Shown here: positions 4,057 to 40,294 of the stretch, in pieces
Position numbering within the stretch: position 1 is the first letter of the stretch
How the letters are laid out: every line of letters starts with the position of its first letter
From: Miltoncostaea oceani
GTDB lineage: Bacteria > Actinomycetota > Thermoleophilia > Miltoncostaeales > Miltoncostaeaceae
NCBI RefSeq assembly: GCF_018141545.1
Contig: NZ_CP064357.1
Location: 372,001 to 436,000, forward strand
Length of the DNA: 64,000 nucleotides
Reading direction: 5' to 3'
Notes under the pieces: model-generated
What the model was told of the DNA's origin: nothing
The model's input: only the letters and a program-made list of their open reading frames with translations
Databases searched by the model: none
Position numbers and translations under genes: made by a program

Positions 4057-5561
4057 CGGTGATGATCGACACACCGGCGCCCCCGGTTGTCCTCGAGTCG
4101 ACGGCCCGGCCTGTGACCTCGACCTCGAGGCTGAGGTTCGCGCCGTCCCCGACCGGGTTCCTGCATGTCGGGGCGGCGCGGACCGCCCTCTACAACCACC
4201 TGCTCGCGCGTCGTCACGGCGCGGCGTTCATCCTGCGCATCGAGGACACCGACCGCGAGCGACACGATGACAGTGCCGTGGCGCAGATCATCAGCGCCCT
4301 CGGTTGGCTCGGCATCGACTGGGACGAGGGCCCGGGCGCCCCAGGCCCCGATGGTCCGTATGCCTGCAGCGCCAGGGCGGACGTCTACGCCGCCGCCGCC
4401 GCGCATCTGCTTTCCGCCGCTCGCGCCTACCCGTGCTTCTGCTCTGCCGAGCAGCTTGCCGCGGACCGCGAGCTCGCCAAGACTGAGGGGCGCGCCCAGG
4501 TCTACTCCGGTCGTTGCCGGAACCTCACCGAGGCCGAGCGGGCAGCGCGGATCGCCGCCGGCGCGGCGCCGGCCCTGCGTCTGCTCATGCCGTCGCAGAC
4601 GATCAGGATCCAGGACATGGTCCGGGGCGAGGTGACGTTCGAGAGCGCGCAGCTCGGAGACCACATCATCGTCAGGCCCGACGGGACCCCGACCTACAAC
4701 TTCGCCAACCCGGTGGACGACCATGCGATGCGGATCAGTCACGTCCTCCGCGGTGAGGACCTGCTGCCGAGCACCGGACGCCAGATGGCGGTGATCGCGG
4801 CTCTCGGCGGCCAGTTGCCTTCCTACGGGCACCTGCCGATGGTCAACGGCGCCGACGGCCGGAAGCTCTCAAAGCGCCACGGAGACTGCGCGGTCGAGGA
4901 CTTCCAGACGCGCGGGATCTGCGCCGAGGCGCTTGTGAACCAGCTCGCTCTCGTGGGATGGAGCCCGGAGGGGGAGGAGCAGGTCATGACCCGCGCTGAG
5001 ATCCAGGATCGGTTCTCCCTCGGGCGCGTCCATCGCTCCGCAGCGGTCTTCGATGAGCGCAAGCTCGCCAGCCTGAACGGTGATCACCTCCGGGCGATGC
5101 CGGCGCCCCTGTTCCTCGAGCGCCTCCGCGACTATCTGCGTGCGGCCGACGCCGAGCTCCACGACGAGCCCCGCCTGCCTGAGTTGGCCTCCTTCATCCA
5201 GGAGAAGATCGGCCGCTCGCTCGAGGAGTTCCCCGGCCTCGCCCGCCCGCTCCTCGCCCGGCTGGGGCCGGAGGACAAGGCCGCCGCCGTCCTCGGCTCG
5301 GCGGACACGCCGCGCGTCCTCGCCGCGGCGCGCGAGTGCCTGTCCGAGCTGATGCCGTTCACCGTTCCGGTGGTCGAGGCGGGACTCCGGCAGCTCCCGG
5401 AGGCGCTCGGGCTGAGCATGCGAAAGTGCTTCGCCCCGATCCGGTGCGCGGTCAGCGGCCGAGTGGTGTCACCCGGGCTTGCCGAGTCGATCGTCTTCCT
5501 CGGACGCGACGAGTCCCTCGCGCGTCTCGGAGCCGCAGCCCGGGCGTCCCACCAGCCCTGA
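4053..5561 (+). CDS. gltX: glutamyl-tRNA synthetase
   Basis: A 502-residue class I synthetase that charges tRNA-Glu. The HIGH motif is HVGA at about residue 38 within APSPTGFLHVG. The KMSKS motif is KLSKR near residue 271. A cysteine cluster CFCS near 127 with YSGRC near 150 matches the zinc-binding insert of many GluRS enzymes. The C-terminal anticodon-binding helical domain is present and the length is normal. The first ATG (4053) overlaps the stop of the phosphoesterase; a second ATG lies at 4062. Whether it also charges tRNA-Gln cannot be told from sequence alone. It is immediately followed by the RNase P RNA gene. Confidence 0.95.
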   Translation: MTVMIDTPAPPVVLESTARPVTSTSRLRFAPSPTGFLHVGAARTALYNHLLARRHGAAFILRIEDTDRERHDDSAVAQIISALGWLGIDWDEGPGAPGPDGPYACSARADVYAAAAAHLLSAARAYPCFCSAEQLAADRELAKTEGRAQVYSGRCRNLTEAERAARIAAGAAPALRLLMPSQTIRIQDMVRGEVTFESAQLGDHIIVRPDGTPTYNFANPVDDHAMRISHVLRGEDLLPSTGRQMAVIAALGGQLPSYGHLPMVNGADGRKLSKRHGDCAVEDFQTRGICAEALVNQLALVGWSPEGEEQVMTRAEIQDRFSLGRVHRSAAVFDERKLASLNGDHLRAMPAPLFLERLRDYLRAADAELHDEPRLPELASFIQEKIGRSLEEFPGLARPLLARLGPEDKAAAVLGSADTPRVLAAARECLSELMPFTVPVVEAGLRQLPEALGLSMRKCFAPIRCAVSGRVVSPGLAESIVFLGRDESLARLGAAARASHQP

Positions 5562-9139: not shown

Positions 9140-9454
9140 ATGTCAGCCAGGTCGTTGCAAGAGGTCGAGCGGGCGATGGAGATCTTCATCGGCGAGTTCA
9201 GCCACAGGACCGACAGCCCCGTCGAGCCGGCCCGAGCGGTCGCCGCCGCCGTGGCCGACTTCGCACGTCAGCCCCGTCGCCCCGAGATCGCGCGCCGTCT
9301 CACCACCCATCTGGGCGATCCGGTCCGCCTCCACTCCCTCATCGCCGCCCAGGCGGGAGCTGAGCCGTGGGACGGCTACCTGGCGACGCGCCAGAGCCTG
9401 CTCGTGCTGGAGCGCCGCATGGCGCGCCGGTCGCGGGGGTGGGTCGGGGGCTAG
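9140..9454 (+). CDS. hypothetical helical protein, 104 aa
   Basis: A 104-residue protein, almost wholly helical (SLQEVERAMEIFIGEF and on). Starts at ATG 9140 after a GGGAG sequence; a GTG at 9110 is an alternative start. Its 3' end overlaps the convergent RNA ligase gene by 4 nt. The function is unknown. Confidence 0.6.
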   Translation: MSARSLQEVERAMEIFIGEFSHRTDSPVEPARAVAAAVADFARQPRRPEIARRLTTHLGDPVRLHSLIAAQAGAEPWDGYLATRQSLLVLERRMARRSRGWVGG

Positions 9455-10659
9455 GCCTCGACCGGCCCGAAGTCGCGACCGTCGCGCTCTGCGGCGATCT
9501 TGTCGGGCAGCCGCTTCTCCAGGTACTCGCGCGCCTTCTCGGGGCGGCCGTCGAGCACGGAGAAGTAGAGCGGCAGGTCCGGGCCGGCGTGGTCGCGGGC
9601 GGCCAGGGCGAAGCTCTTGCGGTCGAGGTGGCGGTTCGCGGCGACCCACTCAGAGACCGATGAGAGCAGCGTGTCGATGCGCTCGCGCTCGACCATGGAC
9701 GAGCGGAAGTGCCCGAGCACCTCCTCCTCGAGCTCGAAGTCGTAGCCGCCGGCGAGCTCGCGCACCTTCGCGCGGAAGGCCTGCTCGTCGCGGATGTCGT
9801 GCTCGAGGCAGAGCTCGGCCACCCGGCGCGGGGAGAAGGCGAAGAGGATCGCGTGGGCCGCGAGGTACGAGGCGGCCTTGACCTTGACCATCGTCTGGCC
9901 ACCGGCGCAGCGGGCGACGATCCCCTCGCTTCCCTCGAGGTCGCGGATCACCTCCGCCATCTGGCCGATGTCGCGCGGGAGCTCGCGCTCCTCGACCAGC
10001 TTCAGGCCGCCCTCGCGTGCGATCGCCTCGACCTCGTCGCGGTGGCTGAGGCTCGCGTCGACGTGCGATACCGCACCGAGGAACGTGAGGTCTGGCTCGG
10101 TGTAGGGGAGGACGATCCGAAAGCGCGGGCTGGTGAACTCGAACAGCAGGGACCCCTCGGGCGCGAAGGCCGGGTCGAGAAGCTGGGGGTAGTTCGCCGC
10201 CGCGCACGCGCGCATCGCCGGCCCGTGGGCGCCGCCGTCGGTGGTGCCACGGGTCCGGAAGATGACCGAGCCGCCGATCACCGAGCGGATGCAGAGCGAG
10301 CCGTCCATCTTCTCGGTCAGCCAGACCTCCTCACCGGCCTCGAGGGCGCGCTCGAGGCGCGCGCTGTCGTCCGCGTTCTCACCGAGGTTGAAGAACTTCG
10401 GCCAGCCGAGGGACGCCACCCGGCCGTCCGAGTCGAACACGGCGGAGCGGAGCCAGAGCTCCTCCGGCTTCCAGTCGTACTTCGCCCGGCTCGGCGTCAC
10501 GAGCACCAGTCCGTCGCGGTTGCTCACCGCGAACTGGCGCTCGGCAAGTGCCTCGGGGTCTCGCGCCCATGCCAGATCGGCGATCGGCGGTCGTGCTGCC
10601 ACGACCTGCTCGCGGATCGCGGGTGCCTGTGAGATGCGTCCTGAGTGTCCTCGTCCCAT
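9451..10659 (-). CDS. T4 Rnl1-like RNA ligase
   Basis: A 402-residue ATP-dependent RNA ligase. Nucleotidyltransferase motif I is TEKMDGSL with Lys117 as the adenylated lysine. Motif III is LFEFTSP near 172, motif IV EGIVAR near 240 and motif V VKVKAASYL near 255; a C-terminal helical domain follows. The enzyme family reseals cut tRNA anticodon loops in phage T4. The start is set at ATG 10659, giving MGRGHSGR, because a TACTGT box lies 8 nt upstream; an in-frame ATG further upstream would place the promoter inside the gene. With Thg1, the RlaP-like enzyme and a second ligase in this window, an RNA-repair role is likely. Confidence 0.88.
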   Translation of the reverse strand: MGRGHSGRISQAPAIREQVVAARPPIADLAWARDPEALAERQFAVSNRDGLVLVTPSRAKYDWKPEELWLRSAVFDSDGRVASLGWPKFFNLGENADDSARLERALEAGEEVWLTEKMDGSLCIRSVIGGSVIFRTRGTTDGGAHGPAMRACAAANYPQLLDPAFAPEGSLLFEFTSPRFRIVLPYTEPDLTFLGAVSHVDASLSHRDEVEAIAREGGLKLVEERELPRDIGQMAEVIRDLEGSEGIVARCAGGQTMVKVKAASYLAAHAILFAFSPRRVAELCLEHDIRDEQAFRAKVRELAGGYDFELEEEVLGHFRSSMVERERIDTLLSSVSEWVAANRHLDRKSFALAARDHAGPDLPLYFSVLDGRPEKAREYLEKRLPDKIAAERDGRDFGPVEA

Positions 10660-10838
10660 GGACGGTGACAGTAGGAGCGGTATGGACACTCGATGCCGAT
10701 TATTGGCGTGGGCGGTCGATGGAGTCGTCGTCCGGACTCACATCGGGCCGGTCCATACGCCCCCGGGACTCACACGTCGTAGATTCGAGGAGACCGCGAT
10801 GTCCCTGATCGTTCCGGGACCGACAAGAGGACAGCACC

Positions 10839-17021: not shown

Positions 17022-18131
17022 ATGGGACGGGGCAAGAGACAGAGCGGTGCGTCATCGGCCACTGGGGCAGCGCCCTCGCCCGTGCTCCTGGCGCGCGCTG
17101 ACTTCCGCGCCCAGGTGTTCGCTCGCGATGGCGGGCTGTGCGTCGTCTGCGGAGCGGAGGGGGCGGACGCCCATCACATCCTCGAGCGCCGCCTCTTCCA
17201 TGACGGCGGCTACTACCTCGACAACGGCGTCTGCCTCTGCTCGCCTTGCCACCTGAAGGCCGAGCAGACCCTGATCGATCCGAGCCTCCTGCGCGAGCGC
17301 GCCGGCATCAAGACCCAGATCAGGCCGGCTCACTTCGCCGCGGCTGAGACCACCGACAAGTGGGGCAACCCGATCCACCCCAACGGCCGGCGCTCACGTG
17401 GGGAGCTCTTCTATGAGGAGCAGGTGCAGAAGATGCTCCGTGCCGGCGCTGTCCTCGATCTCTATGACGTGCGGGTCAAGTATCCGCGCTCATGGCACCT
17501 TCCGAGCTCACCGGGCGCGACGAACGATGACAAGGTCCTGCCCGACACGAGCCACCTGGACGGCCGTGAGATCGTCGCCTCGCTGAAGCTCGACGGCGAG
17601 GCCACCTCGCTCTACCGCGAGCACTTCCACGCGCGCTCGCTCGAGTCGTCGACCCACCCGTCCCAGAGCTGGCTGCGCAGCTTCCACGCAGCGATCGCCC
17701 ATGAGATCCCGGAGGGCTGGAGGATCTGCGGAGAGAACCTGTTCGCTCGCCACTCCATCGCCTACGACGGGCTGCCGAGCTACTTCTTCGTGTACTCGAT
17801 CTGGGACGAGCGCAACCAGGCGCTGCCGGTCGACCAGACCATCGAGTGGTGCGACCTGCTCGGCCTCCAGATGGTGCCGACCTTCTACCGAGGGCCCTTC
17901 GATGAGGATGCCGTCCGGGCGCTGATGCCCGACACGACCCCCTGGAGCGCGCGCAACGAGGGCTTTGTCGTGCGCCTCGCCGACGGCTTCCACTACCGCG
18001 ACTTCGGCCGGAGCCTCGCCAAGTGGGTGATTCCGAACTTCGTCCCCGGCGGCACCGGGCACTGGCGGACCGCCGCGGTGGTCCCCAACGGGATCACCGC
18101 CGGCTCAGACGATCAGTCGCTGAACCAGTAG
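17022..18131 (+). CDS. HNH nuclease-RNA ligase fusion protein
   Basis: A 369-residue fusion. Residues 1-10 are the tag MGRGKRQSG. Residues about 25-80 form an HNH domain (LCVVCG, DAHHILERRLF, LCSPCH). From about 130 comes an ATP-dependent RNA ligase of the PF09414 type: motif I SLKLDGEAT with Lys188, motif III YFFVYSIWD near 255, motif IV EGFVVRL near 312 and motif V KWVIPNF near 334. The combination of a nuclease with a ligase suggests cut-and-seal repair of damaged RNA ends, or a zinc-bearing HNH remnant used for RNA binding. A leaderless promoter precedes it. The 3' end overlaps the convergent gene by 19 nt. Confidence 0.88.
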   Translation: MGRGKRQSGASSATGAAPSPVLLARADFRAQVFARDGGLCVVCGAEGADAHHILERRLFHDGGYYLDNGVCLCSPCHLKAEQTLIDPSLLRERAGIKTQIRPAHFAAAETTDKWGNPIHPNGRRSRGELFYEEQVQKMLRAGAVLDLYDVRVKYPRSWHLPSSPGATNDDKVLPDTSHLDGREIVASLKLDGEATSLYREHFHARSLESSTHPSQSWLRSFHAAIAHEIPEGWRICGENLFARHSIAYDGLPSYFFVYSIWDERNQALPVDQTIEWCDLLGLQMVPTFYRGPFDEDAVRALMPDTTPWSARNEGFVVRLADGFHYRDFGRSLAKWVIPNFVPGGTGHWRTAAVVPNGITAGSDDQSLNQ

Positions 18132-18980: not shown

Positions 18981-19054
18981 GAGCGTGAGGCTGAATGGAT
19001 CAGCAACCGGATTTATACCCGGCCCCAAAGCGGGTTCGATCCCCGTCGCGCTCT
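18981..19054 (+). tRNA. tRNA with UUA or UAU anticodon (suppressor or Ile)
   Basis: A 74-nt tRNA. The acceptor pairs 18981-18987 with 19047-19053 (7 bp, one wobble). The D arm is GCTG/CAGC around a 7-nt loop with GG. The T arm is GCGGG-TTCGATC-CCCGT. The discriminator is T and no CCA is encoded. The anticodon arm is irregular: CCGG pairs with CCGG around ATTTATAC, with one extra C. Reading the 7-nt loop as ATTTATA gives anticodon UUA (reads the UAA stop codon) but leaves U at position 37. Shifting by one gives UAU (Ile, AUA codon) with A37 but a worse stem. It is adjacent to two Pth2-like genes and RNA ligases. Confidence 0.78.
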
Positions 19055-19069
19055 CTCGCATGGACGGCG

Positions 19070-19114
19070 GCCCGCGTCGCCGAATGGCTGGCGGGCCCCG
19101 ATCTCAGGAGTCGG
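19070..19114 (+). other. tRNA-Leu(CAG)-like 5' half
   Basis: Sequence resembling the 5' half of a tRNA-Leu: acceptor strand GCCCGCG, D arm GCC-GAATGGCT-GGC with the GAATGG typical of tRNA-Leu, and an anticodon arm CCGAT-CTCAGGA-GTCGG giving anticodon CAG with U33 and G37. No variable arm, T arm or matching 3' acceptor strand (CGCGGGC) follows. The end overlaps the stop codon of the convergent Pth2-like gene. The acceptor strand GCCCGCG is identical to that of the three tRNA-like elements at 20670-21193. Confidence 0.45.
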
Positions 19115-19835
19115 AGCCGCCGAGGCTGATCGCCACCGTCTCGGTCCCGGCCGAGACCTCGGTCAGGCCGGCATCGCGCACGAATCCGACGTCGCCGTCG
19201 TGGAGGGACCGCCAGCGGTCGGCGTCCGCGGTCGCGATGCCAAGGGGATAGCCGGCCTCAGCCCAGGCCACGAGCCGCGCCGAAGCGTCGGTGCGCTCCC
19301 ACTCGAGCGTCTCGACCATCAGGGCGGCGTGTCCGACCTGGGCCATCGTCTTGCCGACGCTCATGCCGGCAGCGTCGTTGATCCAGAGCTGGACGGCGTC
19401 CGGATGAGCGGGCGCCTCGGCGCCCTGGTGTCCGGCGAGGGTGGAGCGGTCGGGGTCGTAGACGCGGAGCTTGCCGAGGAGCGGGCTGCGGCCTGAGCGC
19501 AGGATCGGGGGCAGCGCCATCAGGGCCGCCTCCCCGACTGCCGGGACGGCGCAGTGGTGCTCGTCGGACAGCAGGCTCGCCCACTCGCTCTCGCGGGCCC
19601 GCAGCACGACCTTGCGAAACGACAGCGCCCGCCAGGCCTCATAGCGCGAGCGCCACGGCTCGGTCTGCAGCACGGGGGCGTCGAGGATGTCCAGGCACGC
19701 GCGCGCCGAGGCATCCAGCAGCTCGGCCTCAGACAGCTGATGCGAGCGTCGGACGATCAGATACATGACCCAGGGGTCGCTCTGGGCCATCCGCGCGAGT
19801 GATGCCGTCGGGAGGTCATGGTGGTTGAACGCCAT
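19104..19835 (-). CDS. two-domain Pth2-like peptidyl-tRNA hydrolase
   Basis: A 243-residue protein. The C-terminal half is a Pth2 (PTH2/COG1990) domain: GMSVGKTMAQVGHAALM near 152-168, with the catalytic-type Lys and Gln, and VRDAGLTEVSAGTETVAI near 222. The N-terminal half (MYLIVRR to SPLLGKLRVY) has the same order of strands and helices without the GKxxAQ motif, so it looks like a degenerate second Pth2 domain. The enzyme class frees tRNA from stalled peptidyl-tRNA. The start ATG 19835 follows TATCGT by 7 nt; the longer ORF would overlap that box. Confidence 0.82.
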   Translation of the reverse strand: MAFNHHDLPTASLARMAQSDPWVMYLIVRRSHQLSEAELLDASARACLDILDAPVLQTEPWRSRYEAWRALSFRKVVLRARESEWASLLSDEHHCAVPAVGEAALMALPPILRSGRSPLLGKLRVYDPDRSTLAGHQGAEAPAHPDAVQLWINDAAGMSVGKTMAQVGHAALMVETLEWERTDASARLVAWAEAGYPLGIATADADRWRSLHDGDVGFVRDAGLTEVSAGTETVAISLGGSDS

Positions 19836-20019
19836 CACTGAGACGATACGACGGCGGCTCCCCGATGTGAGCGAAATGAGACACGCGAGAATCCACCCGT
19901 GCTGTCCAATGAGCCTGTTAGTGTTCTCATCGATGTCCATAAGAGTCCGCTAGTTCCTCACCCCGGCTCGCCTCACGGCTGAGCCACTCCGGCGCCCGGC
20001 GCTCCCCCAAGGAGCTGTC

Positions 20020-20604
20020 ATGGCTCCGATGACGCTGACTCTGGATTCGCGGATGCGTCCGATCGGCCTGATCCGTGAGCGGACGGCTGCACGGCATCTT
20101 GCCTGCGCGCTCTCTGAGGGACGCTCTCCCTCCTGCGAGCTGGTCCTCGCCGATCGCACCCGCCGCTACCGCACGCCCCGGATCGACGTGCCGGCTCCGG
20201 TCATCGTCCGGTGGCCAGCCTTTCAGGAGCTCACGCTCGCGGAGCGTTCACGTGTGACGCGACGGGTCCTGCTCGCACGCGACCAGTGGACCTGCCAGTA
20301 CTGCGGCTTCGTCGCGCACGGGTCCCATGACCGGGCGAGGCTCACCGTCGACCACGTCAAGCCCGCGCACCTGTTCGACTCCCGGGCCGCGGCGACCACC
20401 TGGGAGAACGTCACCACCGCCTGCCGGGCCTGCAACAGCGAGAAGGCCGGGATGCTGCCGTTCGAGTGCGGGATGTACCCGGCGCGGGCACCCCGTGAGC
20501 CGCACTTCGTCCAGATCCGCTTCGCCGGCCGCCTGAACGGCGCCCAGCGCGACTACGTCCGCTCCTTCTACCAGCTGGGAGATGGCGATGATCTCCCGCT
20601 CTGA
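20020..20604 (+). CDS. HNH endonuclease
   Basis: A 194-residue protein with a complete HNH domain in its second half: RDQWTCQYCG near 88-97, LTVDHVKPAHLF near 108-119 and NVTTACRACNSEKAG near 130-145, with two zinc-binding CxxC pairs. The N-terminal 70 residues are unassigned. The ribosome-binding site AAGGAG precedes the ATG by 6 nt, so this mRNA has a leader. It stands directly upstream of the hairpin array and shares its direction; it might be the nuclease of a mobile or conflict module. Confidence 0.88.
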   Translation: MAPMTLTLDSRMRPIGLIRERTAARHLACALSEGRSPSCELVLADRTRRYRTPRIDVPAPVIVRWPAFQELTLAERSRVTRRVLLARDQWTCQYCGFVAHGSHDRARLTVDHVKPAHLFDSRAAATTWENVTTACRACNSEKAGMLPFECGMYPARAPREPHFVQIRFAGRLNGAQRDYVRSFYQLGDGDDLPL

Positions 20605-20608
20605 GTCG

Positions 20609-20630
20609 TCTGCGCCCCGATGGGCGCAGA
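20609..20630 (+). terminator. hairpin after the HNH gene
   Basis: TCTGCGCCC and GGGCGCAGA form a perfect 9-bp stem around CGAT, starting 5 nt after the HNH stop codon. There is no T tract, so it may equally be the first structural unit of the downstream array. Confidence 0.4.
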
Positions 20631-20669
20631 TCAAGGCCCCGTGCGTCCTCACCGGCGCGCGGGGCGCCA

Positions 20670-20740
20670 TGCCCGCGGTGGTTCCGGGCTCCGGCAGCAG
20701 GTCCGCCGTCGCCCCCGAGGTTCGAGTCCTCGGGCGGGCA
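20670..20740 (+). ncRNA. tRNA-like element 1 of the array
   Basis: A 71-nt unit. TGCCCGC pairs with GCGGGCA at its ends, and CCGAGG-TTCGAGT-CCTCGG is a canonical T arm (6-bp stem). The middle part contains TTCCGGGCTCCGG, which could be a weak D arm, but there is no regular anticodon arm. No CCA follows; CTC leads into the next hairpin. It could be a degenerate tRNA, a tRNA mimic, or a substrate of the neighbouring enzymes. Confidence 0.55.
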
Positions 20741-20913
20741 CTCGCCCCGGCCAGCTCACTGGTCGGGGCGCCATGCCCTGCGCGCCCTCACCGGCACGCA
20801 GGGCACCAGGCCCCGGACGCCCTCACCGGCGCCCGGGGCTCCACGCCTCGGTCGCCCTCACCGGCGCCCGGGGCTCCACGCCTCGGTCGCCCTCACCGGC
20901 GCCCGGGGCGCCA

Positions 20914-20984
20914 TGCCCGCGGTGGCAACGGGCGCCTGCAGAAGGTTCGCCGGCGCCTCCGAGGTTCGAGTCCTCGGGCGGGCA
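20914..20984 (+). ncRNA. tRNA-like element 2 of the array
   Basis: A 71-nt unit with the same ends and T arm as element 1. Here a D-like arm GGC-AACGGGC-GCC is well formed, and the middle reads TGCAGAAGGTTCGCC, again without a 5-bp anticodon stem. The differences from element 1 are scattered through the middle, while acceptor and T arm are identical. Confidence 0.55.
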
Positions 20985-21122
20985 CTCGCCCCGGCCAGAC
21001 GGCTGGTCGGGGCGCCACGCCCCGCGCGCCCTCACCGGCTCGCAGGGCACCACGCCCCGCCTGTCCTCACCGGCAGGCGGGGCGCCATGTCCCGTGCGTC
21101 CTCACCGGCGCCCGGGGCACCA

Positions 21123-21193
21123 CGCCCGCGGTGGTTCCGGGCTCCGGTGGCAGGTCTGCCGGCGCCCCCGAGGTTCGAGTCCTCAGGCGGGCA
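21123..21193 (+). ncRNA. tRNA-like element 3 of the array, abutting pth2
   Basis: A 71-nt unit with GCCCGC paired to GCGGGC and a T arm with one mismatch (CCGAGG/CCTCAG). It is followed by A-TCCA and then, two bases later, by the GTG start of the Pth2 gene at 21199. The array therefore forms, or is cut from, the 5' leader of the pth2 mRNA. Confidence 0.5.
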
Positions 21194-21198
21194 TCCAC

Positions 21199-21651
21199 GT
21201 GAGCGAGCGCGATCACGAGCTGGCGGTCTACCTGGTCGTCAACGGGCCCCTGGAGATGTCGACGGGGAAGATCGCCGCGCAGGCCTTCCAGGCCGCCCAG
21301 CGGCTGTTCCGGGCGGCGTCGCATCCGGACTGCCCTCTCCACCTGATCGAGGCCCTGCGCGCCTGGGAGGCTGAGGGCACCCGGACGATCACACGGGTCG
21401 CGCAGACCGCCCACGTCTTCTCCCGCGTCGTCGCGGAGGTCGAGGGCGTGGTGATGGTCGATGAGGGCCTGACCGAGGTCGAGCCCGGATCTGTGACCGT
21501 GTTCGCCAGCTGGCCGATCCCGATGGGGGACGCGCCGCGCGCGCTACGCCACCGACGTTGTCCGCTACTGCGAGGTGTGCGCGGGAGTGACCTCGAGTCT
21601 CAGCCCGAGAGCCCCGCCGATCCGGAGAATCGTCTCCAGGTGGGGGTCTGA
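21199..21651 (+). CDS. Pth2-family peptidyl-tRNA hydrolase
   Basis: A 150-residue cytosolic enzyme of the archaeal/eukaryotic-type Pth2 family. AVYLVVNGPLEMSTGKIAAQAFQAA gives the first strand and the GKxAAQ motif (Lys24, Gln28). VVMVDEGLTEVEPGSVTV near 95-112 is the second signature, with Val-Asp in place of the usual Arg-Asp. The family ends near residue 120; the last 30 residues look unnatural and overlap the convergent XRE gene, so a late frameshift is possible. It hydrolyses peptidyl-tRNA or a related tRNA conjugate. It directly follows the tRNA-like array. Confidence 0.85.
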   Translation: MSERDHELAVYLVVNGPLEMSTGKIAAQAFQAAQRLFRAASHPDCPLHLIEALRAWEAEGTRTITRVAQTAHVFSRVVAEVEGVVMVDEGLTEVEPGSVTVFASWPIPMGDAPRALRHRRCPLLRGVRGSDLESQPESPADPENRLQVGV

Positions 21652-22596: not shown

Positions 22597-22618
22597 CCCC
22601 CGGGAGTTCACTCCGGGG
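22597..22618. terminator. bidirectional hairpin between convergent genes
   Basis: CCCCGG-G-AG and CTCCGGGG form an 8-bp stem with one bulged G and loop TTCA, between the SLOG gene and the convergent gene whose stop codon lies in the loop. Confidence 0.45.
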
Positions 22619-24038
22619 CGGGGTGCACCACCGGGTAGACCGCGGTCCCGTTCGCGGCGCGCTCCCAACCGAGCATCAGCGTGTCCGGAAGGTCCGCTCG
22701 GGCGCCACCGGTCTTGCCGCTGAAGGCCCCGGCACGGCGCAGGCGCGCGGCCAGAGCCGGATCGGCGATGGCGATCCCGTGGACGAGCTCGGGCTCAGCG
22801 CGGGCGATCTCGATCGGCGTCGGTGAGCGGGGCCCGACCCAGCCGGTCGCCAGGGCGTCCACGGAGAGGGTCGTGGCCTTGGCGATGATGTCGTTGCGGC
22901 CCTGCTCCGCCTCGCCGGCGATGACCGTCCAGGGATGGGGGAGCGCGGAGAACATCCGCGTGTCCTCGTGGAGCTCCTCACCCAACGCGCGATAGCCCCA
23001 GACCAGGTCCGATGCCATCAGGCGGGCGGCCTTGCCCGGCAGGTAGGCGTCGAGGGCGTCCTCGAGGTCCGCGGCGCGCATCGCGGCGATCCAGGCGGAG
23101 CGCATCGTGTTGAAGGAGCCCGCGTAGGCGTTCCAGCGTGAGGAGTCGACGTCGCGGACCATCACCATCTCCTCGCGCATGCGCTCGGGGAGAGAGCTCC
23201 AGAGGACCCCCAGGCGGTTCGCACTGACCACCATCTGCTCATGGAAGAGCCCGATCAGGCTCCCGCGCTCGGCCACCGACAGGCGACCGATCACCGGGGT
23301 GGTCGGCATGACGTGGGCCACGGCGAACCAGTTCACACCCTCGCGCTCGCGCATGACCGCGTGGAGGGCCTCGCTGATCGAGTCGAAGGCCCTGCTCTGG
23401 GCGCCGAAGAGGAACATCGACCGCCGGTTGGCGCGCGCGGCGAGGTAGCTGACGAACGCGAGCGTCAGGTCATCACAGTCGCGCCCGCCGACCGCGTGGG
23501 CCAGGCGGCTCTTGGCCTGCATCTGGGCCTGCCGGAACTCGGTGTTCAGGCGCATGCGCTCGATCTTCTGCTCGAAGCGGCGCAGGAAGCGAAGACGCTT
23601 GTGGAGTGCGCCGGGGGAGGGGGCATTGCCCGCGCGGGCCAGCTCGGCCCGAGCACGCAGGGCATCGAGGGCGGACGCGCCGGCCGGTGCACCGAGCATC
23701 GTGAGGGCGACGACCAGACGCCCTTCGAGGTAGGACGGCTCACCGGCCCGGGTGTGGTCGACGTCGAGGCCATCGAACAGGCGCTCGAGGGTCCTCAGCT
23801 GGTCGTCGGCCGCCACCACCCGCTCGAAGTCGCTCGGCATGCTCGTCTCGAAGCTGAAGTCCGAGCGGCTGCCTGCCAGCTGCTCCAGCTCGCGCCGGAG
23901 GGGGACGGGAAGGCCGGGGATCTCGAGGGCGACGATCGCCCGCGCGACATCAGGGGTCGCGGCGCGGCGGCCGAGGCTCTCCTCGAGGAACGTGCGCGGG
24001 TCTTCGATGCTCGCCACGCGCTTCTCCCTCGTGATCAC
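22608..24038 (-). CDS. hypothetical helical protein, 476 aa
   Basis: A 476-residue soluble protein, almost entirely helical, starting at GTG 24038. It has an acidic-basic N-terminal region, a long coiled-coil-like stretch near residues 145-175 (LHKRLRFLRRFEQKIERMRLN), and a central region with RDCDDLTLAFVSYLAARANRRS. The C-terminal part has AFSGKTGG. I do not recognise the family. It may be a scaffold or a HEAT-like repeat protein; neighbours point to RNA metabolism. Confidence 0.8.
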   Translation of the reverse strand: MITREKRVASIEDPRTFLEESLGRRAATPDVARAIVALEIPGLPVPLRRELEQLAGSRSDFSFETSMPSDFERVVAADDQLRTLERLFDGLDVDHTRAGEPSYLEGRLVVALTMLGAPAGASALDALRARAELARAGNAPSPGALHKRLRFLRRFEQKIERMRLNTEFRQAQMQAKSRLAHAVGGRDCDDLTLAFVSYLAARANRRSMFLFGAQSRAFDSISEALHAVMREREGVNWFAVAHVMPTTPVIGRLSVAERGSLIGLFHEQMVVSANRLGVLWSSLPERMREEMVMVRDVDSSRWNAYAGSFNTMRSAWIAAMRAADLEDALDAYLPGKAARLMASDLVWGYRALGEELHEDTRMFSALPHPWTVIAGEAEQGRNDIIAKATTLSVDALATGWVGPRSPTPIEIARAEPELVHGIAIADPALAARLRRAGAFSGKTGGARADLPDTLMLGWERAANGTAVYPVVHPAPE

Positions 24039-24733: not shown

Positions 24734-25516
24734 ATGGGACGCGGACGATCACACGGCTCTCTCACCGTGCCCAACGGCACCTCTCGTCCGGGAGAGGTCG
24801 ATCACGCTGCGCTGATCCGCTCCCTGCCGGTGATGGCCGGCCAGGAGCTACCCCTCGTCGCGCTCGTCGGATCACACGCCTACGGGCTCGCGACCCCGGA
24901 GTCCGACCACGACTACCGCGGCCTCTACCTCGCCCCGACCCGTCAGCTGCTCGGTCTGACCTCTCCGGTCGACCAGCTGGAGATGAAGGATCCGGACATC
25001 TGCTGCTTCGAGTTGGAGAAGTTCTGCCGCCTCTGCCTCGCCGCGAACCCCAACGTGCTCGAGATCCTCTGGGCCGAGCCCGTCATCGACTCACCTCTTG
25101 GCCGCCGGCTGCGCGAGATGCGCTTCTCCTTCCTCTCGGAGAAGGTGCGCACGACCTACACCGGCTACGCGGTCTCCCAGCTCAAGCGGGCCCTCGCGAC
25201 ACCTCCGGAGTCCCCGAGACGGCGCGAGAAGGCGGTCCGGCATCTGTTCCGGCTCTACGAGCAGGTACGGGCGTTGCTCGAGACCGGGGACATGCAGCTG
25301 CGTGTCGCTGATCCTGATCGGCTGCGTGCCTACGCGCGCCTGGACGACGCGCAGCTGAACGCCGAGTTCGAGCGGATGTTCGAGCGGGTCAAGTCGATCC
25401 CGAGCGCATTGGCCCCCGAGCCGGCGCGCGCGGAGGTGGAGGCCTTCCTGATCGAGGTGAGGCTGGACCAGCTTCATCGGGAGGGCGGCTCCAGCCGCCC
25501 TCCCGATGAGTCCTAG
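24734..25516 (+). CDS. RlaP-like Pol-beta superfamily nucleotidyltransferase
   Basis: A 260-residue enzyme. The nucleotidyltransferase signature is VGSHAYGLATPESDHDYRG: Gly46-Ser47 followed by the metal-binding pair Asp58 and Asp60. Next come FELEKFCRLCLAANPNVLEILW and a helical C-terminal domain. This matches predicted nucleotidyltransferases (YcgL/RlaP type) that accompany RNA ligases in repair operons; an activity adding nucleotides to RNA ends is inferred. It begins MGRGRSHG, the shared tag. A TACCCT box lies 10 nt before the ATG. Confidence 0.85.
   Translation: MGRGRSHGSLTVPNGTSRPGEVDHAALIRSLPVMAGQELPLVALVGSHAYGLATPESDHDYRGLYLAPTRQLLGLTSPVDQLEMKDPDICCFELEKFCRLCLAANPNVLEILWAEPVIDSPLGRRLREMRFSFLSEKVRTTYTGYAVSQLKRALATPPESPRRREKAVRHLFRLYEQVRALLETGDMQLRVADPDRLRAYARLDDAQLNAEFERMFERVKSIPSALAPEPARAEVEAFLIEVRLDQLHREGGSSRPPDES
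25473..25510. terminator. very strong bidirectional hairpin
   Basis: ATCGGGAGGGCGGCT pairs perfectly with AGCCGCCCTCCCGAT around CC, extending to about 17 bp at the 3' end of the RlaP-like gene and just before the convergent stop codon at 25513. It probably terminates both genes; it is also partly coding. Confidence 0.6.
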
Positions 25517-38705: not shown

Positions 38706-39491
38706 GTGCCCCGCGGTCGCTCCACCCAGACACGCAAGTCCCCTCACGCCCTGCGCCCGGCGGGCTTTCGCCGGCCCGCCGGAGGCACCCCTCTCACCGC
38801 GCGGGCAGGGGTCATCCTCTCCACCTCAGCGCCCTCCCGGGCGACGATCAACATCGACTCGCTCCCGCGTGCCTGGCGCGCGCATCTGGACGAGTTCAAC
38901 ATCGTGATCGGCGACGACGCCGATGAGGTCCTCGCCCGGTTCACCGGCACCCCGTATCTGCACATCGGATCCTCCGGCCGCGTCTCCTTCCCGAGCCTCT
39001 GCGCCCTCGCCGAGTACTGCTGCCAGACCGCCGCCGAGGAGTTCGACGAGGACGAGTGGCAGCGCCTGCGAGCAAAGGACAGCGGTGCGCTTCGCACGAT
39101 CCGCATCCTGTCGCGCGTCCGCGGCCTTCTGCGAGCCGAGGGAGAGGGACCCTTTGACGTGAAGGCCCTCGAGTCGGCGAGCCGGGTGATGCTCGGATCG
39201 CCGAGCGACCGGCTCACGCCCTTCGAGGACTTCGTCGGAGAGCACACGTGTGTGCTCGGCGAGCGCCTCGGCTACCCGATCCTCGAGCTGCACGGCGACG
39301 GCGTGGTCTCGGTGGCGAGTCGGGAGACCGGACATCAGGTGGTCGAGCTGAGCGCCTCCGAGTACCGCCACCTGAGGGCCTATGTGGCTGCGATCGAGGG
39401 TGGACCGGCGAGCCGGCTTACGATCAGGGCGGCGAACCCCAACCGTTGGAAGGTCATGGAGCGGATGTGGCCCGAGACGGCCTGGTCGTGA
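38706..39491 (+). CDS. tagged hypothetical protein coupled to Thg1
   Basis: A 261-residue protein starting VPRGRSTQTRK, then a Pro/Arg-rich flexible region to about residue 50 and a mixed alpha/beta domain after it (FNIVIGDDADEVLARF, YLHIGSSGRVSF). No family was recognised. The GTG is 6 nt after TAGATT in a CGTCGTAGATTC context that also occurs before the membrane operon at about 10780. Its TGA overlaps the GTG of the Thg1-like gene, so the two are made together. Confidence 0.75.
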   Translation: MPRGRSTQTRKSPHALRPAGFRRPAGGTPLTARAGVILSTSAPSRATINIDSLPRAWRAHLDEFNIVIGDDADEVLARFTGTPYLHIGSSGRVSFPSLCALAEYCCQTAAEEFDEDEWQRLRAKDSGALRTIRILSRVRGLLRAEGEGPFDVKALESASRVMLGSPSDRLTPFEDFVGEHTCVLGERLGYPILELHGDGVVSVASRETGHQVVELSASEYRHLRAYVAAIEGGPASRLTIRAANPNRWKVMERMWPETAWS

Positions 39492-40294
39492 GCGCGCCCT
39501 CGCTCACGGACGCGCTCACGGCACCGACCCGCGACGGCCTGGGCGACCGCATGAAAAGCTATGAGGTGCAGACGCGAACGGTCCTGCCGAGTCGCTCATG
39601 GACGATGATCCGTCTCGACGGAAAGGCGTTCCACTCCTGGACGCGCGGCCTGGAGCGCCCCTGCTCCATCCGACTCGTTGATGCGATGGGCGAGGTGATG
39701 GTCGCACTCTGTGAGCAGATCCCGAACGTCTGCTGCGCCCTCCAACAGTCGGATGAGCTGTCGCTGGTCACCCACGACTTCGCGCGCCCCGGGACGGAGG
39801 CCTGGCACGGAGGGCAGGTCCAGAAGATCGTCTCGGTGTCGGCGTCGCTGATGACGGCGCTCTTCGCCCGTCACTTCCCCGATCGAGCGCCCGCGGTCTT
39901 CGACGCGCGTGTGTTCACGCTGCCGAGCCGCGTCGAGGTCGCCAACGCCCTTCACTGGCGCTACCTCGACGGCAGGCGCAACGCGGTCAACGCCGTCGCC
40001 TCCTCGATGTTCTCCACCAGGCAGCTGCATGGTGTGCCGACCGTTCAGCGCAGGGAGATGATCGAGGCGGCCGGCGTCAGCCTCGGCAGCTTCGATCCCC
40101 GGTTCATGTCCGGTCAGTTCGCGCGGCAGGTCCCGCGGCTGCGCACCAGCTACACCGACAAGCGCACCGGCGAGACCGTCCAGCTGGACCCGCCGGCGAT
40201 CAGCCGGGAGTGGCAGGTCGGCCCGGCGCCCGAGCTGAACGCCCAGCCGGGCGGAATCCTGCTCTCGGAGCTGCTGCCCGCCGACCCGGAGTAG
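39488..40294 (+). CDS. Thg1-like 3'-5' RNA polymerase
   Basis: A 268-residue member of the tRNA-His guanylyltransferase family, which adds nucleotides to RNA 5' ends in the reverse direction. LGDRMKSYEVQ opens the domain. MIRLDGKAFHSWTRGL carries the first metal ligand (Asp44), and LQQSDELSLV the second (Asp89-Glu90). PAVFDARVFTLPS and the WR-x-x-D-RRNAVNAVA region match later family signatures. Bacterial Thg1-like proteins repair 5'-truncated tRNAs, which fits the two RNA ligases and RlaP-like protein nearby. The start GTG overlaps the upstream stop; about 20 residues precede the domain. Confidence 0.93.
   Translation: MSAPSLTDALTAPTRDGLGDRMKSYEVQTRTVLPSRSWTMIRLDGKAFHSWTRGLERPCSIRLVDAMGEVMVALCEQIPNVCCALQQSDELSLVTHDFARPGTEAWHGGQVQKIVSVSASLMTALFARHFPDRAPAVFDARVFTLPSRVEVANALHWRYLDGRRNAVNAVASSMFSTRQLHGVPTVQRREMIEAAGVSLGSFDPRFMSGQFARQVPRLRTSYTDKRTGETVQLDPPAISREWQVGPAPELNAQPGGILLSELLPADPE

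Follow-up and report, generated by a model that had tools for sequence, protein, structure and literature searches.

The window analysed here, a stretch of 64,000 nucleotides (positions 372001–436000 of contig C2, part of a three-contig genome), carries at 20636–21193 an array of 13 structured units: ten hairpins ending in CCA and three tRNA-like elements of 70 nt. The array lies on the coding strand and occupies the gap between an HNH endonuclease gene directly upstream (20020–20604, plus strand) and a Pth2 gene, Pth2-A (21199–21651, plus strand), which starts with GTG, matches PF01981 at an E value of 8e-12 and has the Pth2 structures 1wn2 and 1xty as nearest solved relatives. Nearly all of this gap is structured. 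A plain 10–12 bp hairpin that has no U tract (20606–20633, plus strand) directly follows the HNH stop codon at 20604. An earlier note on this DNA had placed the last element 5 nt before the Pth2 gene, with the HNH gene upstream, and so it was found, the element ending at 21193 and being followed by TCCAC and then the GTG at 21199.

Eight of the hairpins have 12-nt arms around the loop CTCACC and are followed by NCCA and one further base, with a pitch of 35 nt wherever two of them are adjacent. All on the plus strand, these are H1 (20636–20669, GCCA, 12 pairs), H3 (20775–20808, ACCA), H4 (20810–20843, TCCA), H5 (20845–20878, TCCA), H6 (20880–20913, GCCA), H8 (21019–21052, ACCA, two mismatches), H9 (21054–21087, GCCA, 12 pairs) and H10 (21089–21122, ACCA). 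The other two, h2 (20744–20773, loop CTCA) and h7 (20988–21017, loop ACGG), also on the plus strand, have the same 11-bp stem, 4-nt loops and GCCA. The earlier count of ten hairpins, each followed by N-CCA and eight of them sharing the loop, thus holds throughout, while the stem length of about 12 bp given there applies to the eight and not to h2 and h7. With G-U pairs counted, the stems of H1 and H9 are perfect; the other six 12-nt-arm hairpins have one or two mismatches each, and six of these seven mismatches fall at pairs 7–9, a cluster that would correspond to the junction of acceptor and T stem in a tRNA.

The tRNA-like elements T1 (20671–20740), T2 (20915–20984) and T3 (21124–21193), all on the plus strand, consist of an acceptor strand, 38 nt in the middle that can form a long arm, then the T arm and an A, with no D arm and no normal anticodon arm. 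T1 and T2 are each followed by CTC, T1 having no CCA. The earlier description of three such elements was accurate as to their number, T arm and missing anticodon arm, but they are 70 and not 71 nt long; the acceptor-like stem described as 7 bp pairs at six of seven positions, with a G7-G66 mismatch, and the T arm (CGAGG-TTCGAGT-CCTCG in T1) is canonical in T1 and T2 but short of one T-stem pair in T3. The 3′ acceptor strand of T3 contains the sole SD-like purines of Pth2, and a search of the array region for promoter- or terminator-like sites found none. The UCACC of the hairpin loops is complementary to GGUGG in T1–T3 and partly to the Pth2 start, a match too short to carry weight in DNA this rich in GC. 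The units follow each other in the order H-T-h-H-H-H, H-T-h-H-H and H-T, and form a higher-order repeat made of two diverged, 84% identical copies of a 244-nt block (H-T-h-H-H-H) and a third start (H-T).

This arrangement goes far beyond what chance would give, is under structural constraint and does not encode protein. Folding of the 601-nt array region gave a z score of −11.4, and nine hairpins followed by NCCA lie within 600 bp at the array, compared to at most one or two anywhere else in the 816-kb contig. A skeleton of T arm plus acceptor matched C2 at its tRNAs, at T1 and T2 and at one further tRNA-like sequence, with 0–1 matches in simulated sequence of 816 kb. Among the eight 12-nt-arm hairpins, 92.7% of the cells pair as compared with 86.8% in shuffles (a level reached in 1 of 500 shuffles), in four pairs both partners have changed, and three consecutive positions separate H4 from H9 on each of the two arms. 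When whole arms were re-paired, the real pairing gave the maximum, a value that 288 of the 40,320 re-pairings reach. Stems that vary while mostly keeping their pairing, as noted earlier, were thus confirmed, with compensatory changes among the repeats. An open frame (20620–21651) runs through the array into Pth2, and translation as a repeat protein, which the earlier note had named as a finding that would overturn its reading, was rejected: the pitch of 35 nt is not a multiple of 3 and shifts the frame in every unit, and GC by codon position is flat across the array (0.80/0.80/0.77), unlike the genes of this region (GC3 about 0.87, GC2 about 0.5). We consider a repeat protein here highly improbable, and the RNA nature of the array is well supported.

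Judged from the sequence, the units appear to be mimics of the acceptor/T-arm helix of tRNA, as proposed before. The earlier note had offered several functions side by side (decoy, primer, substrate, guide or sensing leader), and its interpretation as a whole is partly supported. This reading is supported by the length of the stacks, the variable base (N73) before an invariant CCA in all ten hairpins, the T arms and the Pth2 and RNA-repair neighbours, together with the compensatory changes and the lack of a coding signal. A 12-bp stack ending in N-CCA, as in an acceptor/T-arm minihelix, is formed by the eight 12-nt-arm hairpins with 0–2 mismatches, and one of 11 bp by h2 and h7. The T-loop pattern TTCRANY is not present in the hairpins and was found in T1–T3 only. 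Standard models did not recognise the array, as ARAGORN called no tRNA gene in the window, RF00005 gave no match to the array up to an E value of 10, YrlA (RF02553) did not match it, and mascRNA-menRNA (RF01684) reached at best 19.6 and 19.1 bits there against a gathering score of 42.5. No TROVE/Ro protein was found in the genome. A specific tRNA ancestor of T1–T3 was also sought and rejected, since none scored above shuffled controls.

The encoded CCA deserves separate mention, as it is found in none of the 40 tRNA genes of the C2 phage and in only 2 of 45 host tRNA genes (counts checked by eye), so that it was not inherited by duplication of a local tRNA gene. The hairpins being paralogues, their CCA may trace to one founder and could be an accident of that founder (about 2% by base composition), multiplied by duplication. 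We also considered that the entire array might be without function, made of one-time tRNA genes whose tandem duplication has run away or is decaying, which would account for the 244-nt higher-order duplication, the mismatched hairpins and the presence of other odd tRNA-like sequences elsewhere in the genome. This appears unlikely, given that pairing is retained above shuffled expectation, that all ten hairpins carry CCA though local tRNA genes do not, and that the middles of the T elements resemble no tRNA of the phage or of the host.

Type III antitoxin RNAs are built of repeats of about 35 nt in front of a gene, and the array has that geometry in common with them. Together with a hairpin loop that is not a T loop, this could point to an array unrelated to tRNA that binds protein as DNA or RNA, such as repeats of the type III toxin-antitoxin kind or a signal for recombination or packaging. 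The array nevertheless differs from the type III systems in its tRNA-like features, its two unit types and the absence of toxin homology downstream, where the gene is PTH2 rather than a ToxN/CptN/TenpN-type RNase. Such a reading would also have to account for NCCA, for the 12-bp stacks and for T arms that stand in register with acceptor strands in all three T elements, and we find it very unlikely.

C2 has a size of 815,643 bp and 70.1% GC, and ARAGORN found 40 tRNA genes and a tmRNA on it. Its PHROG matches include a DNA polymerase, two terminase-large-subunit-like genes, ribonucleotide reductase (RNR), tail/endolysin and virion proteins, and genes for gyrase A and gyrase B lie within the window. 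The 3.68-Mb contig C1 has its own tRNA set and is alone among the two in encoding ribosomal protein S9, and RpoB/RpoC motifs were not found among the called C2 genes. C2 gave no match to the Terminase_6N Pfam model, no major capsid gene was identified on it, and a search for terminal repeats found none. With phage hallmark genes present, there is a strong though still incomplete case for reading C2 as the genome of a giant phage that was binned together with a bacterium. Phage-like in content and carrying 40 tRNAs, tmRNA and gyrase, C2 as assembled exceeds in length the 735-kb phage of PMC7162821. Two further observations on C2 concern tRNA genes. At 602579–604485 (minus strand) a tRNA-Sec gene adjoins a gene with the GTP-binding motif GHVDHGKT, as in SelB. 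At 501,556–501,867 (5556–5867 of L090, minus strand) lie two modules in tandem that resemble YrlA or a circularly permuted tRNA-Thr(UGU), in which the 3′ half precedes the 5′ half with a linker of 12–14 nt and the breaks lie in the anticodon loop; another tRNA-like sequence sits between the two.

By its predicted genes, the neighbourhood of the array is an RNA-repair island, with two Pth2 proteins, two RNA ligases, RlaP and Thg1. In addition to Pth2-A these are a second Pth2-domain gene with a C-terminal PTH2 (19104–19940, minus strand), an HNH-RNA ligase fusion (17022–18131, plus strand, PF09414), an RNA ligase of the T4 Rnl1 type (9451–10689, minus strand), an RlaP RNA-repair nucleotidyltransferase (24734–25516, plus strand) and a Thg1-like 3′-5′ polymerase (39248–40294, plus strand). 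Beside the second Pth2 gene lies an unannotated tRNA-like cloverleaf with an enlarged anticodon loop (18981–19054, plus strand, RF00005 30.6 bits), and the window also has genes resembling aminoacyl-tRNA synthetases, a ThrRS-like one included. A 476-aa protein with no Pfam match (22608–24038, minus strand) has a 44% homologue in a viral contig (L110), adjoining RNA ligase, kinase-like and RlaP-like genes. Jumbo phages are known to carry PTH2, RlaP, Thg1 and ligases, described as serving repair after tRNA-directed defence (PMC7824862).

The closest relative of Pth2-A, at 59–60% identity, is encoded on a viral contig of 122.7 kb (L019), the only viral contig with a relative; none was found in phage and plasmid collections by tblastn or in genome contigs. 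Directly upstream of that Pth2 gene lie about 500 nt with tRNA-like RNAs (elements at 4565–4924), namely a YrlA-like element of 41 bits, a tRNA-like element of 41.6 bits and a tRNA of 61.9 bits whose D loop carries an insert of 25 nt, and the gene itself is preceded by a plain hairpin and then a good SD. The association of Pth2 with tRNA-like elements is hence one of two loci, C2 and L019. Another Pth/tRNA neighbourhood was seen in mycobacteriophage Yucca (L258, 197–895), where a tRNA cluster follows directly on a gene annotated as peptidyl-tRNA hydrolase.

The search for homologous arrays by covariance model, which the earlier note had suggested as a check, found no second array; a related, strongly covarying family emerged from BLAST pieces and a T-arm scan. 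The model built from the array hairpins (R1) matched, in the whole genome, only the array itself at E values below 0.01, and gave isolated matches only in 399 genomes of the class and 396 of the phylum (overlapping samples). None of four R1 matches that were inspected (L111–L113 and L114) was an array. The pattern of the hairpin loop occurred as 36 singletons in viral contigs and a pattern scan of genome contigs gave 39 singletons, again with no array, and when phages and plasmids were searched with the array by BLAST, short pieces were all that matched. As no homologous array was found, the covariation of the array is that among paralogues within one locus.

Some of the BLAST pieces of T1, falling in unannotated gaps of small phages, led to what we here call mini-tRNAs. 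Scanning viral contigs with the 19-nt T arm of T1 gave 53 matches at 49 loci, only five of them in ordinary tRNAs. Most of the others share the design of a mini-tRNA of about 41 nt, in which an acceptor of 5 bp leads through an 11-nt linker containing GG into a T stem of 6 bp with the loop TTCGAGT, followed by the closing strand and A and usually by CTC or CTG as 3′ flank; by analogy with tRNA structure, the GG may be what the D loop uses to dock the T loop. The carriers are small, mostly actinobacterial phages, with the elements located between early genes. In 37 diverse members all 407 of 407 cells pair, 102 of them with changes on both sides, and covariation was 0.716 compared to 0.151 in shuffles; these members were chosen by complete pairing, so that the percentage paired is built in, while the wealth of pair types is not. 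An acceptor was present for 148 of 179 T arms in the mini-tRNA loci, but for 5% when the upstream bases were shuffled. A covariance model of the mini-tRNAs (R2) gave 143 matches in 341 kb, model-building members included, with up to about ten per locus, at loci including L018, L198, L200–L207, L210–L219, L226–L229, L234, L241 and L246–L257. Rfam gave no match at the elements tested, and the mini-tRNAs are likely a new RNA family.

T1 and T2 resemble the mini-tRNAs of actinophages in having the same T arm, an acceptor closing followed by A, often CTC next, GG before the T arm, and an intergenic position on the gene strand. They match the T arm of R2 with 25.2 and 26.0 bits, the best scores in C2, in alignments that are partial only. 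The mini-tRNAs differ from them by an 11-nt linker and a 5-bp acceptor, compared with 38 nt and 6–7 bp in the T elements, and by standing as single copies between genes, as a rule lacking CCA, with no array. Since the scan was seeded with the T arm of T1, the T arm that T1 and the mini-tRNAs have in common reflects selection and is no proof of descent. In Arthrobacter phage BaileyBlu (L199, about 960–1035) we noted an intergenic tRNA-like sequence of about 73 nt that resembles T1–T3 in build, having an acceptor and a T arm while neither a D arm nor an anticodon arm could be recognised.

In annotated phage stretches, 23 of 28 gaps of more than 50 nt contain a mini-tRNA on the gene strand, typically 3–13 nt past a stop codon and 31–53 nt ahead of the next start, exceptions existing. 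Phage phiScoe10 (L261, 45199–49843) has nine at 45.2–49.8 kb, within an operon to which an Ocr-like gene belongs; a search of the other 45 kb gave no further one. We propose that the mini-tRNAs act as processing signals, a form of tRNA punctuation. By the same logic the array could act solely in cis, as a tRNA-mimicking leader at which tRNA-processing enzymes or Pth2 part the HNH message from that of Pth2 and control how Pth2 is translated, whatever is excised being idle. We regard this as possible, if doubtful. It agrees with the placement of mini-tRNAs at gene boundaries, with an array that fills its entire gap on the coding strand, with T3 ending 5 nt ahead of the GTG and covering the SD-like purines by its acceptor strand, and with the lack of promoter- or terminator-like sites in the region. 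A single element would however be enough for punctuation, and an array of 13 units, with its hairpins amplified and CCA encoded, suggests that the product itself is wanted; moreover, the Pth2 gene of L019 has its good SD.

Our preferred reading, to which we give a probability of about 0.4, is that the array is a non-coding polycistronic precursor that is cut into acceptor/T-arm mimics acting as decoys, with the Pth2 message being freed in the process. From its anatomy, constrained pairing, non-coding character and phage context we infer transcription, processing and decoy role in the following manner. The array would be transcribed together with HNH and Pth2 as one transcript, host RNase P would cut 5′ of each stem and 3′ enzymes would finish the ends. 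Products would be minihelices of about 34 nt already carrying NCCA, and 70-nt tRNA-likes maturing in the way of tRNAs that lack an encoded CCA. As NCCA is already encoded in the minihelices, RNase Z and CCA-adding enzyme would not be needed for them, and they would resist RNase Z. In trans, the products might act as decoys of the acceptor end and draw off host factors by which tRNA 3′ ends are attacked or held, such as toxSAS or MenT-type toxins, while Pth2, the ligases, RlaP and Thg1 would mend the real tRNAs; amplification to 13 units would suit a dose-dependent decoy. In cis, a cut after T3 would leave UCCAC-GUG, an almost leaderless Pth2 message with 5 nt ahead of its start, and would in this way link the output of Pth2 to the processing of tRNA.

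The decoy reading is supported by stems that change while pairing is kept, by the 12-bp stacks, T arms and NCCA, by the repair island, by the tRNA-like RNAs ahead of the Pth2 gene on L019 and by the covarying mini-tRNAs at gene boundaries of other phages; counted against it are the loop CTCACC in place of a T loop, the lack of a homologous array and a Pth2/tRNA-like link that comes from two loci. The toxSAS protein FaRel2 pyrophosphorylates CCA-ended tRNA minihelices, reading G1-C72, C2-G71, G4-C69 and pair 5-68, and Pth is listed among the acceptor-stem binders (PMC11559606). The array hairpins have G1-C72 and, in all but H10, C2-G71, but lack G4-C69, so that a target with a preference other than that of FaRel2 would be needed.

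We see in the array a new form of tRNA mimicry that probably has a wider class behind it. We tentatively suggest, as a possibility that may well prove too general, that phages generally use stripped-down tRNAs with acceptor and T arm but no anticodon, with mini-tRNAs punctuating the early operons of small phages and the 13-unit array of a giant phage releasing CCA-ended minihelix decoys against defence that targets tRNA 3′ ends. Genomically encoded tandem minihelices ending in CCA were undescribed in anything searched, with no Rfam family for them or for the mini-tRNAs, and a search of a literature collection found neither tandem minihelices nor intergenic tRNA-likes in phages. As decoys, the units would be a means of countering, with RNA, those toxins that modify the 3′ ends of tRNAs; as punctuation, they would mean that the logic of tRNA punctuation known from mitochondria holds for phages as well. 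The mini-tRNAs are directly testable in tractable phages, namely Phantastic of M. smegmatis and phiScoe10 of S. coelicolor.

Compared with known systems, the array shares with phage tRNA gene arrays and tRNA-repair modules (XacN1, PMC5852040; survey, PMC7824862) the setting of a giant phage with many tRNAs, PTH2, RNA ligases, RlaP, Thg1 and a presumed defence of translation, but its units have neither anticodon nor D arm, escape ARAGORN and RF00005, and in ten cases are bare hairpins with encoded CCA. YrlA and other bacterial Y RNAs are likewise non-coding tRNA mimics, and YrlA-like modules occur in the tRNA cluster of the C2 phage and upstream of the L019 Pth2 gene, whereas the array itself matches no YrlA and its genome has no Ro partner. 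The mascRNA and menRNA, which are excised by tRNA enzymes, combine acceptor and T arm with a reduced remainder much as T1–T3 do, which is a likeness in build. The minihelices used as FaRel2 substrates (PMC11559606), finally, have the acceptor/T stack with NCCA in common with the array hairpins, but those are synthetic, whereas the units described here are genomically encoded in tandem and carry the loop CTCACC where a T loop would be.
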